A stretch of DNA of 36,301 nucleotides, from IMG/VR virus record IMGVR_UViG_3300042924_006165, positions 1-36,301 of that record. The stretch is one strand, 5' to 3'. Under the pieces are notes generated by a model. That model did no database searches and had not been told where the DNA came from. It saw nothing but the letters and a program-made list of their open reading frames with translations. A program made the position numbers and the translations under genes. Of this stretch, positions 5,875-34,032 are shown piece by piece (positions within the stretch are counted from its first letter, which is position 1; the number at the start of each line of letters is the position of its first letter). Source of the stretch: a virus.

Positions 5875-6778
5875 TAGAAGAATCTAAGATTACTTTGCCG
5901 TAGGTCTTCCTGCTAAGTATATCATAATGAGCTTTAGTTGCATCTTTAAGGGGGTATTTGAAGTCTGTATATGTATTTAGCAATCCATCCTGAACTAAAA
6001 CAAATAAAGATTTTACAATATCAATAAACTTAGATGGATCCTCAAAACAATTGTGTAGCCAAAATCCAGAAACAGTTTTAGACCCATTCATTAAAATTTT
6101 AGGGTCAATCAAATTAATATTAGTAAAATTTTCATCTGCCATGCCGTACACTACAAGCCTACCAAAATTGTTTAATAAGGCTAAATCCTTTCCGATGTCT
6201 GACCCAGACATGTTTAAGATTACATCAAATTTTTTATTATGTGTGTCAGTTTTAACTCCCATTTTGTTAAAAATTTCAATAACGGAATTTTTTGTAGATG
6301 TAGAATAGACTTCAGCGTTAAGCATTTTAGCCAGCTGTATCGCAATTGACCCAACCCCGCTGCCGCCAGAATATATTAAAACCTTTTCCCCACTATTAAC
6401 GTTTCCCACACTATTAATTAAATGCCAAGCAGAAGCTCCTTGTATAAAAACATGTAAAGCTTGAGAAAATGAAATTGAATCTGGAATTTCTAATGTTAGA
6501 TTTTTCCACAAGTTAGCTTTAGTTGCATAGCTTCCCATTGGGGAGATGCCGATTACTCTTCTTTTATCTTTATCAAACCCAGCAGCCTCAGCTCCAGGAA
6601 TAAAAGGAGTTTTTGATGTCATTAAATATGTATTTTTAATTTGATGCGTGTCTGCAAAATTTATTCCAATTTCTTTTACATCAATTAAGGTGTGTCCTGG
6701 AATTTCTTTTAAATCTGGTACTTCCTCGAACAACATTGAATCTGGTCCACCAAATTTTTTTACTACTATTGCTTTCAT
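5867..6778 (-). CDS. MDR-family NAD(P)H:quinone oxidoreductase-like enzyme
   Basis: A 303-residue medium-chain dehydrogenase/reductase of the zinc-free quinone reductase type. The start MKAIVVKKFGGPDSM and the GINFADTHQIKN segment match the catalytic domain. YSGGSGVGSIAIQLAK near residue 140 is the Rossmann NAD(P)H loop, and the C-terminus KTYGKVILD is typical. No structural or catalytic zinc ligands are evident. Likely substrates are quinones or reactive enones. It overlaps the oxygenase-like gene 6778-7377 by one base and shares its promoter. Such enzymes are rare in phages and suggest a redox or detoxification role. Confidence 0.8.
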   Translation of the reverse strand: MKAIVVKKFGGPDSMLFEEVPDLKEIPGHTLIDVKEIGINFADTHQIKNTYLMTSKTPFIPGAEAAGFDKDKRRVIGISPMGSYATKANLWKNLTLEIPDSISFSQALHVFIQGASAWHLINSVGNVNSGEKVLIYSGGSGVGSIAIQLAKMLNAEVYSTSTKNSVIEIFNKMGVKTDTHNKKFDVILNMSGSDIGKDLALLNNFGRLVVYGMADENFTNINLIDPKILMNGSKTVSGFWLHNCFEDPSKFIDIVKSLFVLVQDGLLNTYTDFKYPLKDATKAHYDILSRKTYGKVILDSSID

Positions 6779-7377
6779 TATATACTTTCTGGCACTAGGT
6801 CAATAATCAAATGTATTCTGTCTGTAGTTCCTTCATTTTTAACAGAGTGGGTATTGCCTTTGTTAATCTCCCAGCATTCTCCCGCCTTCATGTTTATTGT
6901 TGTATTCCCATTTGTAAAAAATGAATGTTCGTTAGTTGTTAAAGCTAAATGATACCTTCTTGTTTTGTTTGAAAAATTTAAAAAATCAACGTCAACGCTG
7001 TCATGTTTATAATCTCTGTGCTCTGGGATTGAGTGCAGAGATCTCAAATTAGAAAGAACAATTGTCCCGTGTATTTTTCCAGGGTTAATTTTTTCTAAAT
7101 ATCTTACAATTGGTTTTACCAATTCCCATAATTCTTTGTCTTTGCTAATAACTTTTGGCTTTAACGGTTTCTTTGTTAAAATAGCTATTTTTATTAAAAG
7201 AGATAAATCTCCAAAACCAACTTCTGCAATTTGATAAGTAGGATTCCAAAGAAAAGAATTTATCTTGGTGCCATCAAAATCTTCTTTCGGAAGCTCTGAA
7301 ACTTTTTTAGACAATTTTTTTATATCAAAATTTGCAATAAACTTGAAGTCAAATTTTCTAAATTCTTCTTTTTTCAT
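6778..7377 (-). CDS. Aspartyl/asparaginyl beta-hydroxylase-like Fe(II)/2OG oxygenase
   Basis: The C-terminal half carries the jelly-roll signature. HRDY supplies His120 and Asp122, RYHLALTT is the conserved strand, the segment around residues 165-170 (AGECWEINKG) follows, and NTHSVKN supplies the distal His177. RIHLIID includes Arg187, which would bind 2-oxoglutarate. The family hydroxylates Asp/Asn in proteins, with related members acting on free amino acids. The ATG at 7377 is leaderless, 7 bases after a -10 box. It is first in a two-gene operon with the quinone-reductase-like enzyme and divergent from a methyltransferase. Confidence 0.75.
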   Translation of the reverse strand: MKKEEFRKFDFKFIANFDIKKLSKKVSELPKEDFDGTKINSFLWNPTYQIAEVGFGDLSLLIKIAILTKKPLKPKVISKDKELWELVKPIVRYLEKINPGKIHGTIVLSNLRSLHSIPEHRDYKHDSVDVDFLNFSNKTRRYHLALTTNEHSFFTNGNTTINMKAGECWEINKGNTHSVKNEGTTDRIHLIIDLVPESI

Positions 7378-8135: not shown

Positions 8136-8222
8136 TATTTTTTGATATTTTTTTATAGCAAGACTAATTACAGACAAAAATACTAAGTATATGAAAATAA
8201 TAAAATTCTTAATTTTATTCAA
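8118..8222 (-). CDS. Possible 34-residue membrane peptide (doubtful)
   Basis: A TTG-started frame at 8222 overlaps the end of the small cysteine protein gene and encodes a hydrophobic segment (FIIFIYLVFLSVISLAI) flanked by lysines and arginines, typical of a single-pass membrane peptide. It ends inside the convergent methyltransferase gene. There is no good ribosome-binding site, so it may be chance in AT-rich DNA. Confidence 0.3.
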   Translation of the reverse strand: MNKIKNFIIFIYLVFLSVISLAIKKYQKILINRR

Positions 8223-8346
8223 TTACCTGTGTCTTTTCGCATCTTAAGCAAACTAAATAAGTTTTTCCTGTAAATGGGCATGATGACTCCATTGGCTTGT
8301 GTCCTATACATAAACATGTTAAATTTTTAAAAAATTTTATTTTCAT
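8215..8346 (-). CDS. Small four-cysteine protein (43 aa)
   Basis: CLCIGHKPM near the N-terminus and CLRC near the C-terminus, with a further Cys between, form a zinc-knuckle layout like that of many actinophage small proteins. The ATG overlaps the catalase stop (ATGA). Function unknown; co-translation with catalase does not imply a shared role. Confidence 0.6.
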   Translation of the reverse strand: MKIKFFKNLTCLCIGHKPMESSCPFTGKTYLVCLRCEKTQVIE

Positions 8347-9623
8347 AAATTATTATTTTTTCTAAGATCTATTAAGTCTTCATATAGTCTTTGATCTACC
8401 TGTTTGAAGTTTTGCAGTAAAGGCTCTACAATTCTTGGACTTACCACAGACAAAGCTACGTGTAAATTTTTTGATAGCCTATCTTTAGCTTCAGCATCAA
8501 TCATGTTATAAAAGTTTTTGGCAAATCTGTATATACTATTATTAGTTTTTTCTTCTTCATACTTATACCACAGCTTTCCGTTCACAAAAGTAGTTAGCTC
8601 TTTAGCAACATGTTTTGATATTGGATTTATGTCTAAACCGTTAAGTCTACTTTTTTGAACTAAAGGATAAGTTGTAATTCTATCCAGAAGCCCACCGTCT
8701 GGGGAAAGACCTATTCCTTGGGTAACGTTAGAAGGAGACCATGCCATTTTTTCAATCTCTAACCATTGATGATAATCACAATTGTTTATTTCCACAATTC
8801 CTAATTCTATTAATGGGAATTCTCTGTGTGGCCAAATATTATTCATTCTAAATATATTGAAATCAAATAATTCATCGTTGTTAGTTGGAATTACTTGTGC
8901 ATACATTTTCCATTTTGGAAAATTATTATTTCTAATAGATTCATAAAAATCTCTAGTGTAATAATGAGGGTAATTTAAAGATAATCGCTGGGCTTCATCG
9001 TCTGACATATATTCATTTCCTTGCATTGTTTTAAAATGAAATTTAACCCAATATCTTTCTTTTTCTGAATTAATGAAGGAAAAAGTGTTTACTCCATATC
9101 CATTCATGTTTCTCCATGTTTTAGGAATGCCACGATCTCCCCAAGTCATTAATATGTTATGAGTTGATGCAGGATTTTGTCCAAACCAGTTCCATCTTTC
9201 ATTGTTTTCAAACATGCCAGATGCATAATTAACTTGTTGAGAACTATGAAATTTTTTAATTTCTTTTCTATCAACCACATACTGAATGGGAACATTTAAA
9301 CCAACAATATCAAAAATTCCGTCCTGCTCTGATTCAAGTCTAATTGAATACCCTCTTGTATCCCTGTAGGTTTCAGATGTTCCATGTTGTGAAGAAGTGC
9401 TAGATAATCTAAGCATTACTTTGAATTGTTTGCCAACTTGTGTAAAAAAATCTGACGTGGTGTATTCTGATATGTCATTGGTGCAAGTAAACGAACCACC
9501 AAATCCAGAACCGTTCCCATGAAAAATTCTTTCTTTAGAAAATCCGTTTTTATAAAACTCATCCATTTTTGCCGCTGGTATCGCTACCATTGGGTTTAAA
9601 GATAAAGCTTCAGCAGAGTTCAA
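8343..9623 (-). CDS. kat: Heme catalase
   Basis: Monofunctional heme catalases split hydrogen peroxide into water and oxygen. The key residues are present. The distal His35 is in ERIFHGNGSG and Asn110 in DIVGLNVP. RDTRGYSIR matches the family's RDPRGFAVK, and DRGIPKTWRNMNGYG and WVKFHFKT are close to consensus. The proximal Arg315 and heme-ligand Tyr319 are in DRITTYPLVQ. At 426 aa it is shorter than the usual 480-500, mostly at the ends. The start is TTG at 9623 with AAGGAG 7 bases upstream. It is the last large gene of an operon beginning near 10628. Catalases are very unusual in phages; it may protect the infected host from peroxide, or could be carried in the virion. Confidence 0.9.
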   Translation of the reverse strand: MNSAEALSLNPMVAIPAAKMDEFYKNGFSKERIFHGNGSGFGGSFTCTNDISEYTTSDFFTQVGKQFKVMLRLSSTSSQHGTSETYRDTRGYSIRLESEQDGIFDIVGLNVPIQYVVDRKEIKKFHSSQQVNYASGMFENNERWNWFGQNPASTHNILMTWGDRGIPKTWRNMNGYGVNTFSFINSEKERYWVKFHFKTMQGNEYMSDDEAQRLSLNYPHYYTRDFYESIRNNNFPKWKMYAQVIPTNNDELFDFNIFRMNNIWPHREFPLIELGIVEINNCDYHQWLEIEKMAWSPSNVTQGIGLSPDGGLLDRITTYPLVQKSRLNGLDINPISKHVAKELTTFVNGKLWYKYEEEKTNNSIYRFAKNFYNMIDAEAKDRLSKNLHVALSVVSPRIVEPLLQNFKQVDQRLYEDLIDLRKNNNL

Positions 9624-9639
9624 AGTAGCTCTCCTTAAG

Positions 9640-9846
9640 TTAAACTTTCTTAGGTCGTTTTGTAGGCTTGCTTAATCCTAGAATCGTTTCTCTTCTTATT
9701 CCATGCCTGTTTCTATCAACCCTAAGAGATGTTTTAGAATAATTAGGCTTAGGTCTTCCTTGTGTAGGATTTTTTCTTGCAACGTTGCTAGAAGTTACGG
9801 CTGAATTGTTAGACTCACTCGCTGGAATATTTTCTGTGTTAGACAT
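9640..9846 (-). CDS. Small basic, low-complexity protein (68 aa)
   Basis: A Ser/Asn-rich N-terminal half (SNNSAVTSSN) and a strongly basic C-terminal half (RVDRNRHGIRR, KPTKRPKKV) suggest a disordered, nucleic-acid-binding protein. No family is recognised. It overlaps the membrane peptide gene upstream by 8 bases and sits 16 bases before catalase in the same operon. Confidence 0.55.
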   Translation of the reverse strand: MSNTENIPASESNNSAVTSSNVARKNPTQGRPKPNYSKTSLRVDRNRHGIRRETILGLSKPTKRPKKV

Positions 9847-9946
9847 TTTTATTTACTTTATTCCTGGAATAAGATTTTCCCCAAAAAAATGAAGAAATCA
9901 TTAATAGCCCAATTACCAATGAATGCCAAAAATAAAAACTGCTCAT
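9839..9946 (-). CDS. Small single-pass membrane peptide (35 aa)
   Basis: The peptide begins MSSFYFWHSLVIGLLMISS, continues FFWGK and ends with a basic tail, giving one membrane helix with the C-terminus probably inside. It overlaps the genes on both sides (ATGA with the Lys-rich peptide, 8 bases with the basic protein). No function is recognised; holin-type or envelope roles are possible. Confidence 0.5.
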   Translation of the reverse strand: MSSFYFWHSLVIGLLMISSFFWGKSYSRNKVNKNV

Positions 9947-10047
9947 TTAGAATTTTTCTTTTTTTGTTTTACAGCACGCTTTTCTTTAAGAGTCATCTTT
10001 GGCTCTTTTTTCTTATTAACGTTACCCTTTTGTTCTTTATTTGCCAT
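9943..10047 (-). CDS. Lysine-rich peptide (34 aa)
   Basis: More than a third of the residues are Lys or Arg (KKKEPKMTLKEKRAVKQKKK), which implies binding to nucleic acid or acidic partners. The ATG lies inside the end of the upstream gene and the stop overlaps the downstream start. It is part of the catalase operon. Function is unknown. Confidence 0.5.
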   Translation of the reverse strand: MANKEQKGNVNKKKEPKMTLKEKRAVKQKKKNSK

Positions 10048-10189
10048 TAATAAATTGCCTTGTCTGCTCTGGTGTTGAAGTCATGTCTAATGTTAAACCT
10101 GATTCACCATCTCTTGAAACATCTATAACTGGAGCAGAAACAATTCCTGTTTCGCTTCCAACTGATTCGCATCCGCATTCAATACACAT
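10037..10189 (-). CDS. Small cysteine-start protein (50 aa)
   Basis: The protein begins MCIECGCESVGSETG with three cysteines in a CxxCxC cluster, then an acidic, Thr/Ser-rich stretch ending RQFINGK. It overlaps the stop of the proline-rich gene by one base (TAATG). The N-terminal cluster may bind metal. Not recognised. Confidence 0.55.
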   Translation of the reverse strand: MCIECGCESVGSETGIVSAPVIDVSRDGESGLTLDMTSTPEQTRQFINGK

Positions 10190-10467
10190 TATTGTTTGTT
10201 CCTGCTAAACCAAGAGTTTGCCCAGAAATCTACTTTTTCGTCTACTACTGGTACTGCTGATTGTGCTGGTGCTTCAACAACTGGCGCTGGTGCTTCAACA
10301 ACTGGCGCTGGTGCTTCAACAACTGGCGCTTCAACAACTGGTGCTGGTGCTTCAACAACTGGCGCTTCAACAACTGGTGCTGTTGGCTGCGGACCAGCTG
10401 CCAATGCTGCTGTAGCAGCTGCTAGTTGCTCTGCTGTTGGTTCATTTATACTTAGGTTATCTGACAC
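10189..10467 (-). CDS. Proline/alanine-rich repeat protein (92 aa)
   Basis: An acidic N-terminal section is followed by tandem copies of VVEAPAP/VVEAP (about residues 31-68) and a C-terminal FWANSWFSRNKQ. The repeat DNA lies at about 10258-10380. Such extended Pro-Ala segments usually act as rigid linkers, for example between a membrane or capsid anchor and a terminal motif. The gene follows the small protein at 10470-10628 by 2 bases and overlaps the next start by one. A structural or decoration role is inferred from this context only. Confidence 0.6.
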   Translation of the reverse strand: MSDNLSINEPTAEQLAAATAALAAGPQPTAPVVEAPVVEAPAPVVEAPVVEAPAPVVEAPAPVVEAPAQSAVPVVDEKVDFWANSWFSRNKQ

Positions 10468-10469
10468 GA

Positions 10470-10628
10470 TTACTTACCGTTGTTTCCAACACCAGATCCG
10501 TCTTGTGTTGACTTATCTGTTGATGGGAAGGCTGATGCAGGATCTGCAGCATATTGCTCACCATTCCATGATGTGTTTGTTACTGGCTTAACCTCGTTAA
10601 AACCTGTTAAATCTTTTCCATCTGACAT
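10470..10628 (-). CDS. Small Gly/Asp/Ser-rich protein, operon start (52 aa)
   Basis: The start is placed at the ATG at 10628 because AGGAGA lies 6 bases before it; an upstream in-frame ATG has no ribosome-binding site. The protein is probably disordered, with TNTSWNGEQYAADPASAF and a glycine/asparagine-rich end. It heads an operon running through catalase to 8215. Function is unknown; it could be a minor structural protein. Confidence 0.55.
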   Translation of the reverse strand: MSDGKDLTGFNEVKPVTNTSWNGEQYAADPASAFPSTDKSTQDGSGVGNNGK

Positions 10629-10683
10629 TTTGTTTCTCCTATAGTTTGTATTTAGATGGGAATATAGGTCCATCTATCACCTT

Positions 10684-10692
10684 ATTATAGCA
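10684..10692 (-). promoter_or_regulatory. Extended -10 promoter of the catalase operon
   Basis: TGCTATAAT on the minus strand lies about 55 bases before the ATG at 10628. The leader contains GATGG...CCATC, a possible short hairpin, followed by the AGGAGA ribosome-binding site. No clear -35 box is seen. Confidence 0.5.
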
Positions 10693-11667: not shown

Positions 11668-12690
11668 TTACTTAATCCAATTAACCTTTAGCTTAGGAAA
11701 CTTTGCGTTCCACTTTTTAGCCAAAGCGTTGAACTTTGTCTTTAGATCTGCAATAGTCTTTTTTAGGGCTTCGTTCTCTGCCTTTAAAGTTGCTGTTGCT
11801 GAATCTGATGAAGCCTTTGCATCTGCAAGCGCCTTATCTGATGCAATCTTGTCCGCTGCACGAGCCGCTCTTTCTGCTGCCAAAGCTGCGTTAACTACCG
11901 CAAGCTCTGATACAACATCACGTACTACAATTGTAGCGCTTACAGAACCTATTGGTGCTGCTAAGCCTGTTACGGCTGTTGCTACTGTTGCATATGCAAC
12001 TACTGTTACTGAACCAGTAGCAGGCATTGTTACTGTCTGCTCTTTTGTTCCAAGTGTTGCTGTTGCTGAATCAGTTGTTAGTGCTGTTGATAGCGCTGTT
12101 CCAGAGCTTGAAACCAAAGTATTAATTGTGGCTCCACTCTTTAGATTTCCAAATACATCGTATCCAGATACCTTAAGAACTTGTGACGTACCTGCTGCTG
12201 CTGATGATGGAGCAGACAAAGTAATTGAGTTCAAAGCACCTGCGGTACCTTGTACATAATAAACTGTTGTTGTTCCTGCACGAGTAATAGATACCGAACC
12301 TACTGCTGTACTTTTAGTATATACATAAAAGTCTGCCGCTGTTCCAGTTCCTGTTGCAATTGATAGTGTGGATGTTCCAGATGATGCTGTTACTGCTGAA
12401 CCAGTTGCTGCAAGAGCAGGTACAATAGTTGCATTTACTGCAACTGCTGTTACTACTGTTCCAGTGTCTACTGATGTCACAGCAATCTTTAATGCATCTG
12501 CTGCATCTACGCTGTTATCTGCTGGTACTGGTAGTGACACAGGAGTTGTTACTACTGTTCCACCCGTTGCTGCAGTTCCCGCCACTGTTAGCGTGACAGT
12601 TCCAGCGTTAGCGCTAGCTGCTGGCGCTACAAGCATTGTGCTAGTCAGGGCTGCAGCGATGATTAGCGATATTTTTTTAAATGAGTTCAT
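11668..12690 (-). CDS. Secreted S-layer-like protein with C-terminal coiled coil
   Basis: The protein has a clear Sec signal peptide (basic start, hydrophobic core, cleavage near APAASANA). About 230 residues of Ala/Thr/Val/Ser-rich beta sequence follow, reading as Ig-like repeats. A coiled coil (AALAAERAARAADKIASDKA) comes next, and a basic end (KKWNAKFPKLKVNWIK). The composition, richer in Ala and Thr and in GC than neighbouring genes, looks like an actinobacterial surface protein. It could have been acquired from the host to alter or disguise the envelope, or be a virion fibre. It has an AAAGGAG ribosome-binding site, a leader of about 60-80 bases and TATAAT at 12759-12764. Confidence 0.65.
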   Translation of the reverse strand: MNSFKKISLIIAAALTSTMLVAPAASANAGTVTLTVAGTAATGGTVVTTPVSLPVPADNSVDAADALKIAVTSVDTGTVVTAVAVNATIVPALAATGSAVTASSGTSTLSIATGTGTAADFYVYTKSTAVGSVSITRAGTTTVYYVQGTAGALNSITLSAPSSAAAGTSQVLKVSGYDVFGNLKSGATINTLVSSSGTALSTALTTDSATATLGTKEQTVTMPATGSVTVVAYATVATAVTGLAAPIGSVSATIVVRDVVSELAVVNAALAAERAARAADKIASDKALADAKASSDSATATLKAENEALKKTIADLKTKFNALAKKWNAKFPKLKVNWIK

Positions 12691-16489: not shown

Positions 16490-16518
16490 ATTATACTCTA
16501 AACTTCAATTATTGTAAA
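16490..16518 (-). promoter_or_regulatory. Promoter of leaderless gene 16270-16482
   Basis: On the minus strand TTTACA (16513-16518), 17 bases, TATAAT (16490-16495), 7 bases to the ATG. The -35 box lies within the last codons of the HslV-like gene. Confidence 0.7.
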
Positions 16519-17067
16519 GGGTGGTCTTACCGACATATTAAATTTTGCAGCGGCTTCTAGTGCTAGCCTTACTCTTTTACGTGGAGTCTTAATGGCTGGA
16601 GTTGAATAAAATGATCCTAAAGATATTTCTTGTCCCGCTCCTTCTGCCATGTAAGGAACATCGGCTTCCCCAATATGAAAATCTGTATCCATTACAAAAA
16701 TTCTACCAGCACCTTGAACAGCAATAATAAATACTCCTCCTTCATCACCATCTTCCGTAGAACCTGGATTTTGATTACCATAGCCATGCTCTTTAAACAA
16801 CTCTTTTATTGATTCTACAAACTTAGTTCTCATAAACTTATCTAAATTTTTAAACCCAACGTTAGGTTTGTAAATTGGCGGGGTCCAACTATATTGTAAA
16901 ATTTGACCCATCCTGAAACTGTCTACAAACCCAATTCCAAATTGACCTACTTTAAAAACTTTTGGGTCTACTCTTTGAAATATTAATCCTGTTTTTTCAT
17001 CAGATGCTGCGGAGTCCCCACCTAGGAGGACTTTATTTTCATGGATTAGGGCTACGATTGCAGTCAT
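16498..17067 (-). CDS. HslV/proteasome-beta-like threonine peptidase (copy 2)
   Basis: A 189-residue paralogue of the gene at 3918-4460. After Met removal, Thr1 starts TAIVAL. Asp is at mature position 17 (LLGGDSAASD). A lysine lies at about mature position 35 (DPKVFK). EGAGQEISLGSF replaces the Gly-Ser-Gly segment, with Ala where HslV has Ser. The C-terminal helix and strand match copy 1 (ALEAAAKFNMSV against ANKAIEVSAKFDI). A glycine/acid-rich insert around STEDGDEGG is unique to this copy. It has its own leaderless promoter. The two copies could form mixed rings or have different substrates; no ATPase partner is present. Confidence 0.75.
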   Translation of the reverse strand: MTAIVALIHENKVLLGGDSAASDEKTGLIFQRVDPKVFKVGQFGIGFVDSFRMGQILQYSWTPPIYKPNVGFKNLDKFMRTKFVESIKELFKEHGYGNQNPGSTEDGDEGGVFIIAVQGAGRIFVMDTDFHIGEADVPYMAEGAGQEISLGSFYSTPAIKTPRKRVRLALEAAAKFNMSVRPPFTIIEV

Positions 17068-33205: not shown

Positions 33206-33314
33206 CTATATCTTCCTTAAACATATTTTTAATATATCTATCTTCTGCATCTGCAATTCCTTGTCCAACATTAGATGCCCAGTTCTTTACGTTTTTCAGT
33301 AGCCGAAATAGCAT
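33183..33314 (-). CDS. Small overlapping gene (43 aa)
   Basis: The frame starts at an ATG inside the 3' end of the kinase-fusion gene and overlaps it by 44 bases, then runs past its stop and overlaps the DUF2061 start. The product contains KNVKNWASNVGQGIADAEDR and an acidic end, an amphipathic helix followed by charged residues. The small NWASNVGQGIADAEDRYI-type protein looks like known phage small genes. Function unknown. Confidence 0.5.
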   Translation of the reverse strand: MLFRLLKNVKNWASNVGQGIADAEDRYIKNMFKEDIDDESNQD

Positions 33315-34032
33315 GAATCTCTGCCCCCAAATCTACTTGTTCAATCTTATATCCTACGTCACGACCATAAACAATATTAGTAATGTTAGGAAGTCTTAGC
33401 ACTAATGCGCCATCCATAAATTTATCTTTAGCAATGTACTCTTTTACCTGATCAAACTTAAGTGGATCTTTCTCACTTGTATTGTATGTATTTCGTACTC
33501 CAAGTAATACTTGGTTAGTTCGTTTACCAGCTTCTTTATATAAAGCGTGATGCCCCTCATGCCATGGTTGATAGCGACCAAGCATAAGTGTTGTTGGTGC
33601 AGACCAATCATGCAAGCCATGTTTTTCAATTATTTGAGATGCTTTTTCTTCAGCATTTAGTTCATGATTAGAAAAATATGCGTTGGCAATTTCAGGGCGC
33701 TCAAACATTTTATTTGTATCTTCAAAACGACTTTGCGTAATAGTATCCATAAATATTAAAATATTTGGCTTACCGAATGCTTTACGAGTTTCCGCTGTTG
33801 GGCAAACAAAGTCTACAATAACTGGAGCAACTCCTTGATTGGCAATAAGTCTTGCCATAGCCCCCATACGTCTTGCTTGTTCTATGCGATCTTCTGGAGT
33901 AAATCCTAAGTCAGAATTAACAGTAGCTCTTACCTCATCTGCATTAAGGTGAATAGCATTAATTCTTTCTTTTAAAGATTTAGCTAATTCTGTTTTACCA
34001 GAACCTGGAAGTCCTATAATTTGAATAATCAT
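33271..34032 (-). CDS. APS-kinase-like / nucleotidyltransferase fusion
   Basis: Residues 1-130 form a P-loop kinase domain like adenylylsulfate kinase: Walker A GLPGSGKT (7-14), HLNADEVRATVN, and ARLIANQGVAPVIVDFVCP. Residues 145-253 form a cytidylyltransferase/NMN-adenylyltransferase-like domain with GRYQPWHEGHHAL (HxGH at 158-161) and ISATEKRKEL, the counterpart of the family's ISxTxxR. Such fusions occur in cyanophages and other aquatic phages with an uncertain role. APS kinase makes PAPS, the donor used by the sulfotransferase at 1640-2260, so a link is possible; NAD or CDP-sugar chemistry is an alternative. It overlaps the RuvC-like gene by 4 bases. Confidence 0.75.
   Translation of the reverse strand: MIIQIIGLPGSGKTELAKSLKERINAIHLNADEVRATVNSDLGFTPEDRIEQARRMGAMARLIANQGVAPVIVDFVCPTAETRKAFGKPNILIFMDTITQSRFEDTNKMFERPEIANAYFSNHELNAEEKASQIIEKHGLHDWSAPTTLMLGRYQPWHEGHHALYKEAGKRTNQVLLGVRNTYNTSEKDPLKFDQVKEYIAKDKFMDGALVLRLPNITNIVYGRDVGYKIEQVDLGAEIHAISATEKRKELGI

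Follow-up and report, generated by a model that had tools for sequence, protein, structure and literature searches.

A phage-borne catalase-fold gene with a rebuilt distal heme pocket, a candidate for oxidative tailoring

In heme catalases the distal histidine assists the cleavage of the peroxide O-O bond while a distal asparagine helps to orient H2O2, and one valine and two phenylalanine residues make the binding pocket tight and hydrophobic. A viral catalase is normally read, from its annotation, as an instrument of peroxide defence. Here we describe a gene at positions 8343-9623 (minus strand) of a 36,301-nucleotide stretch of viral DNA (IMG/VR record IMGVR_UViG_3300042924_006165; in its full length referred to as the window) for which this annotation would mislead, because the match to the catalase family is strong yet the catalytic asparagine has been exchanged along with much of the pocket and the protein falls into a clade composed of phage sequences.

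The KatA enzymes of Pseudomonas aeruginosa and Helicobacter pylori (PF00199) share with the phage protein the fold, Arg354, Tyr358, Arg365, His75 and Ser114 at about 29-35% identity, but in the phage protein Asn148, Val74, Val116, Phe153 and Phe161 are replaced. By analogy, the coral catalase-related allene oxide synthases (cAOS) and hydroperoxide lyase of Plexaura and Capnella provide a precedent for a catalase fold turned to another reaction, as they possess a catalase core, convert fatty acid hydroperoxides and are poor catalases, the Capnella enzyme exhibiting a kcat of 303 per second with H2O2 (PMC5617202). Their Thr66 corresponds to the position of Val74, and their Leu150, counted from the distal Asn, to that of Phe161 (PMC5617202). 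The phage protein resembles cAOS in its catalase core and in the altered residue at position 74, while Leu150 of cAOS provides a small aliphatic residue at position 161. In contrast, cAOS retains the distal Asn (Asn137) along with Thr66, where the phage protein has Leu and Phe, and it is fused to a lipoxygenase, a domain found neither in the phage protein nor in the other proteins scanned. The set Thr66-His67-Asn137 plus lipoxygenase partner of the coral enzymes is hence represented by Phe-His-Leu alone. This comparison uses the published residues of cAOS, which does not appear in the top 60 sequence matches of the phage protein in the PDB.

As for viruses, an exact-phrase search of the literature for phage-encoded catalase found no report. 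The cultured tailed Acetobacter phage phiAO1 (LC644971), a precedent for carriage of catalase by a phage, harbours such a gene near its baseplate genes and set within phage genes, but the encoded enzyme (LC644971.1, 23390-25513; 708 codons) is of the large HPII type with a canonical VGNN motif, unlike the protein described here. The sole significant viral structural neighbour in BFVD is the catalase of Tupanvirus, a giant virus (694 residues, 23% identity, E 3e-33). Catalases within Acinetobacter, Listeria, Enterococcus, Staphylococcus and Clostridioides records of a "phages" collection (about 27-35% identity, several of the records being unannotated) were set aside as probable host DNA. Two large HPII-type catalases from IMG/VR (L039 and L040) have the distal His75 exchanged for Asn and Val116 for Ser and constitute another non-canonical group.

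Fold and heme pocket of the phage protein

The gene consists of an intact open reading frame of 426 codons starting with TTG, seven bases upstream of which a Shine-Dalgarno sequence, AAGGAG, is located (9631-9636, minus strand). Its product matches Pfam Catalase (PF00199) with an E-value of 3.1e-86 and 290 bits, far above the curated cut-off of 25, and contains a second, weaker match to Catalase-rel. The AlphaFold2 model, computed with 29 sequences, reaches a mean predicted local distance difference test score (pLDDT) of 84 and a predicted template modelling score (pTM) of 0.86. It adopts the catalase fold, its best PDB match in Foldseek being KatA of H. pylori (E 1.7e-36, template modelling score 0.83). 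KatA-type catalases also make up the top matches among solved structures, and ordinary KatA enzymes are the nearest profile matches among PDB sequences. Consequently, the initial annotation, which had recognised a complete catalase-family gene, is borne out in this respect, and we are highly confident that the protein is a heme-binding catalase fold. It does not belong to the HPII/KatE large-subunit enzymes, since it ends at residue 426 without a C-terminal flavodoxin-like domain and scores 198 bits with the HPII model, whose cut-off is 1102. None of the PHROGs families was matched.

Differences are found within the distal pocket. In a HMMER alignment with four solved catalases the motif G-N148-N149-T-P aligns without gaps to G-L109-N110-V-P of the phage protein, and MAFFT agrees. 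Leu109 (codon TTA, 9297-9299, minus strand) thus occupies the place of the catalytic distal Asn148, while Asn110 corresponds to Asn149. The numbering follows the human catalase sequence, which served as a ruler, and the alignment of Asn with Leu recurs without it. Immediately in front of the distal His35 (human His75) Phe34 replaces Val74 (codons of both residues at 9519-9524, minus strand). Gln114 (9282-9284, minus strand) is found in place of Phe153, Ile122 (9258-9260, minus strand) substitutes for Phe161, the residue stacked over the heme, and a Thr occupies the position of Val116. The proximal heme site is complete, with the segment Arg315 to Tyr319 (8667-8681, minus strand) kept and with Arg315, Tyr319 and Arg326 aligning to Arg354, Tyr358 and Arg365. 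The initial annotation had correctly named His35 and Arg315/Tyr319 but had taken Asn110 for the distal asparagine. As this assignment results from a misalignment, the conclusion drawn from it, namely that the site is intact and the enzyme should be active, loses its support.

Set against the features of EC 1.11.1.6, the protein therefore has the proximal Tyr ligand with its Arg partner as well as the distal His. The distal Asn is Leu in all phage copies, the hydrophobic residues Val74, Val116, Phe153 and Phe161 are represented by Phe, Thr, Gln and Ile/Val/Thr, and both the N-terminal arm and the long wrapping segment of the intertwined tetramer are shortened. In the window copy 34 residues precede the distal His compared to 74 in the human enzyme, a difference of about 40. 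The wrapping segment comprises 42-44 residues in all nine full-length phage copies, about half the usual length; in 75 small cellular-type catalases it is never shorter than 77 residues, and the phage segment falls about 35-40 residues short of that of small-subunit catalases. Judged by these residues, the protein is not a canonical heme catalase.

A conserved clade within a phage lineage

Three scans of IMG/VR revealed this type of gene on 11 contigs besides the window (12 records in all, G000-G011). Two of the 11 contigs break off within the gene, one of these covering just 50 residues. Ten full or near-full phage sequences were compared. All ten share Leu148, Phe74, Thr116 and Gln153 with Ile, Val or Thr at position 161, and all ten keep His75, Ser114, Arg354, Tyr358 and Arg365, although identity among them falls to about 39%; the pocket changes are common to subclades that are only about 40% identical. 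In contrast, all canonical catalases in a pocket table of about 115 catalases possess Asn148, Phe153 and Phe161; Phe74 and Thr116 occur in none of them, position 74 being Val, Pro or Met. With replacements at all five positions throughout the clade, the expectation of the initial annotation that the protein is active in the manner of an ordinary catalase is not supported.

In the phylogenetic tree the phage proteins form one clade (Shimodaira-Hasegawa-like approximate likelihood ratio support 100) on a stem of 1.34 changes per site, and the clade persists after removal of the pocket columns. The alignments describe a phage-only branch of the catalase family whose distal pocket is rebuilt alike in every known member. 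The gene is under purifying selection: the ratio of nonsynonymous to synonymous substitution rates amounts to 0.074 between the window and its relative G001 and to 0.11-0.26 in most other within-subclade pairs, with many synonymous sites saturated; for distant pairs the saturation renders the ratios unreliable.

The initial annotation had also raised the question of a donor. No comparably close cellular gene emerged. Complete phage members score 576-795 bits with the clade profile, compared to 324 bits for the best of 396 Actinomycetota, whose 12 best matches carry the normal Asn-Asn motif. In three other phyla, sampled with 395, 398 and 292 genomes (1,085 in total), there was no clade relative with an E-value under 1e-115. 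A recent acquisition from a sampled actinobacterium or a member of another phylum was rejected, as among the matches listed for the four phyla there is no close relative in 1,481 sampled genomes, a sample beside which a rare cellular relative could exist.

The gene is real, phage-borne and conserved. The window encodes a terminase, an endolysin and a carbamoyltransferase and is syntenic with G001 (110,973 bp), the aligned blocks showing 80-98% DNA identity. Both record ends of G001 meet inside the window, so that it represents a nearly complete genome, of about 111 kb. It encodes a DnaE-type polymerase, portal, head protease and tail proteins, a ribonucleotide reductase, a DnaB-type helicase and RecA. 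A further record, G002, is 99.997% identical over 30 kb. The catalase-fold gene hence belongs, as an auxiliary gene, to phage genomes that are syntenic and stem from several samples, and synteny across the 12 records of one related phage lineage rules out host contamination, including the case considered by the initial annotation that host chromosome had been joined to phage DNA.

The nearest cultured phages found are the Streptomyces phages BillNye, Circinus and Wakanda (Stanwilliamsviridae, Loccivirinae), none of which has a catalase match, unlike the phage of the window. Because portal (58-59% identity) and DnaE-type polymerase (57%) of G001 resemble those of these Streptomyces phages, an actinobacterial host, possibly a peroxide-sensitive one, is likely. 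A 340-residue signal-peptide protein (window 11668-12690) offered no further clue to the host, as it had no match in the 396 Actinomycetota. It is 74-96% identical in most phages of the group and about 50% identical in one, while other genes of the same phages are far more diverged. Given also its higher GC content, it may be exchanged among phages.

Cargo slot and possible function

A 68-residue basic protein (9640-9846, minus strand), which most related phages possess whether or not they carry the catalase-fold gene, serves as a conserved marker just in front of a variable cargo slot; no cultured relatives of it were found. Of 80 related loci, read via a conserved peptidase-like neighbour as anchor, six carry the catalase-fold gene, and it is absent from the slot in 35 of the 36 loci that extend at least 3 kb beyond the 68-residue protein. 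Seven of ten slot proteins scanned in relatives devoid of the gene are 2-oxoglutarate (2OG)-Fe(II), TauD, JmjC or P450 enzymes; the remaining three are a TylF-like methyltransferase, a CDGSH finger below the cut-off and one unassigned protein. In the window an aspartyl/asparaginyl hydroxylase-like 2OG enzyme (6778-7377, minus strand; PF05118, E 4.3e-13) forms part of the neighbouring cargo. Its homologue stands beside the gene in G004, and in both genomes a methyltransferase adjoins as well. The surroundings of the catalase-fold gene in G005 and G006 include a carbamoyltransferase, an alpha/beta hydrolase and a synthase of the KAS III type. This company suggests oxidative tailoring rather than peroxide defence, as an association and not as proof.

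We therefore put forward, as a reading whose overall merits appear to us evenly balanced, that a catalase-fold heme enzyme has been recruited as oxidative tailoring cargo. The protein would bind heme, would be made during infection from the operon promoter described below and would dismutate H2O2 poorly at most. Instead, it would use a peroxide or hydroperoxide to oxidise or rearrange a larger substrate, and would belong to a set of iron-dependent tailoring enzymes (2OG dioxygenases, TauD, JmjC, P450) that replace one another at a single slot. The individual parts differ in strength. The altered pocket makes it fairly probable that the enzyme is not an efficient catalase, while its being a tailoring enzyme of some kind falls slightly short of an even chance. 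More tentatively, it may represent a phage-evolved class with a Phe-His/Leu distal pocket performing a new heme-dependent oxidation, for example as a peroxygenase or hydroperoxide isomerase, in a virus-encoded small-molecule or surface-modification pathway. Such an activity, if true, would extend the chemistry of the catalase fold beyond the coral oxylipin enzymes and add a heme enzyme to the oxidative enzymes which large actinobacteriophage-type viruses exchange at one slot. With a small protein and ten natural variants at hand, the question is directly testable.

Several observations weigh against this proposal. The cargo neighbours vary between subclades and include no fixed pathway partner, and neither a lipoxygenase nor any other obvious source of organic hydroperoxides was found in the proteins scanned. 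Furthermore, the pLDDT drops below 50 at residues 27-34, i.e. in the distal loop preceding His35, meaning that the placement of Phe34 is poorly modelled. Finally, mutation of Asn148 is stated to affect the rate and not the chemistry (Gao 2008, as cited in PMC5617202), for which reason Leu at position 148 is not decisive by itself. The latter point also speaks for a slower but true catalase or peroxidase which would shield an infected, peroxide-sensitive aquatic actinobacterium, as the initial annotation had supposed. Retention of the catalase fold, the distal His and the proximal Tyr and Arg is compatible with such a role, as are the ordinary KatA enzymes as nearest profile matches, the relationship to actinobacterial phages and the growth of cultured acI freshwater actinobacteria only with added catalase (Kim 2019, as cited in PMC7308576). 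Yet five pocket positions have changed jointly and have long been retained in this state, Phe74 adjoins the distal His where catalases carry Val, Pro or Met, and the sampled slot proteins are dioxygenases and P450 rather than other peroxide-removing enzymes. Peroxide defence by the phage is the main rival reading but, with the pocket replaced, is no longer the simplest one, and we consider it less likely than not. Taken together, fold, pocket and gene company make a repurposed heme enzyme that uses peroxide our preferred reading, at about even odds, ahead of a slow catalase serving defence.

Loss of the catalytic Asn and alteration of positions 74, 116, 153 and 161 could alternatively reflect a loss of catalysis altogether, the protein now binding heme or a small ligand or playing a structural part. 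The distal His, Ser114 and the proximal heme site, however, are invariant down to 39% identity, which points to retained catalysis and renders this explanation improbable. Packaging of the protein into the virion together with the small basic and Pro/Ala-rich proteins, as contemplated by the initial annotation, is the least credible alternative and in our estimation very improbable. It would accord with the co-directional run of these genes, which is conserved in G001, but none of the operon proteins scanned, the supposedly virion-like small ones included, matches a structural PHROG, and no other support for it was found. Moreover, since most relatives that retain the 68-residue protein lack the gene, it is accessory and not part of the particle plan.

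A number of further genes deserve mention. G001 encodes a cytochrome P450 (PF00067, E 3.9e-72; L011:11450-12892, corresponding to G001:71450-72892) resembling P450s of terpene tailoring and of the tailoring of ribosomally synthesised and post-translationally modified peptides, and the cargo slot of L314 holds another P450. The KAS III-type acyl synthase (PF08541, E 1.1e-28) and the alpha/beta hydrolase of G005 are located at L153:2635-3666 and 9848-10663.

Operon and neighbouring genes

The catalase-fold gene is the seventh of a tight operon, preceded by six short genes which overlap or nearly touch. An extended -10 promoter, TGCTATAAT, lies at 10684-10692 (minus strand), and both this element and the small upstream reading frames have their positional counterparts in G001, which confirms the arrangement of small Pro/Ala-rich, basic and membrane peptides behind one promoter noted initially. 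The motif is modestly enriched in the window (9 observed versus 3.8 expected, with 2 of 100 shuffles reaching 9), and all nine occurrences are found on the minus strand, which is the coding strand.

The operon, whose small genes up to the 68-residue protein are all conserved in G001 and are all encoded by the minus strand, opens with a 52-residue protein (MSDGKDL..., 10470-10628) preceded by the Shine-Dalgarno sequence AGGAG. It is followed by a 92-residue Pro/Ala/Val/Glu-rich repeat protein with VVEAP units and a GTG start (10189-10467), for which no family match was obtained; the number of repeats varies among close relatives, the G001 protein comprising 100 residues. Next come a 50-residue protein (MCIECGC..., 10037-10189), which overlaps the following gene and whose stretch recurs in further contigs, where it was detected via its antisense reading frame, a very basic peptide of 34 residues (9943-10047) and a probable membrane peptide of 35 residues (9839-9946). 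Downstream of the catalase-fold gene, a Cys-containing protein of 43 residues (8215-8346, minus strand), likewise conserved in G001, has its start overlapping the catalase-fold stop codon.

Elsewhere in the window, the protein encoded at 33271-34032 combines an APS-kinase-like P-loop domain with a subsequent nucleotidyltransferase-like domain; in G007-G011 a homologue of it directly precedes the catalase-fold gene. In subclade B phages the same late region also encodes a thioredoxin (PF00085, E 1.1e-25; L157:11017-11319). An HslV-like peptidase homologue (phrog_1040; window 16498-17067) is conserved throughout the group.

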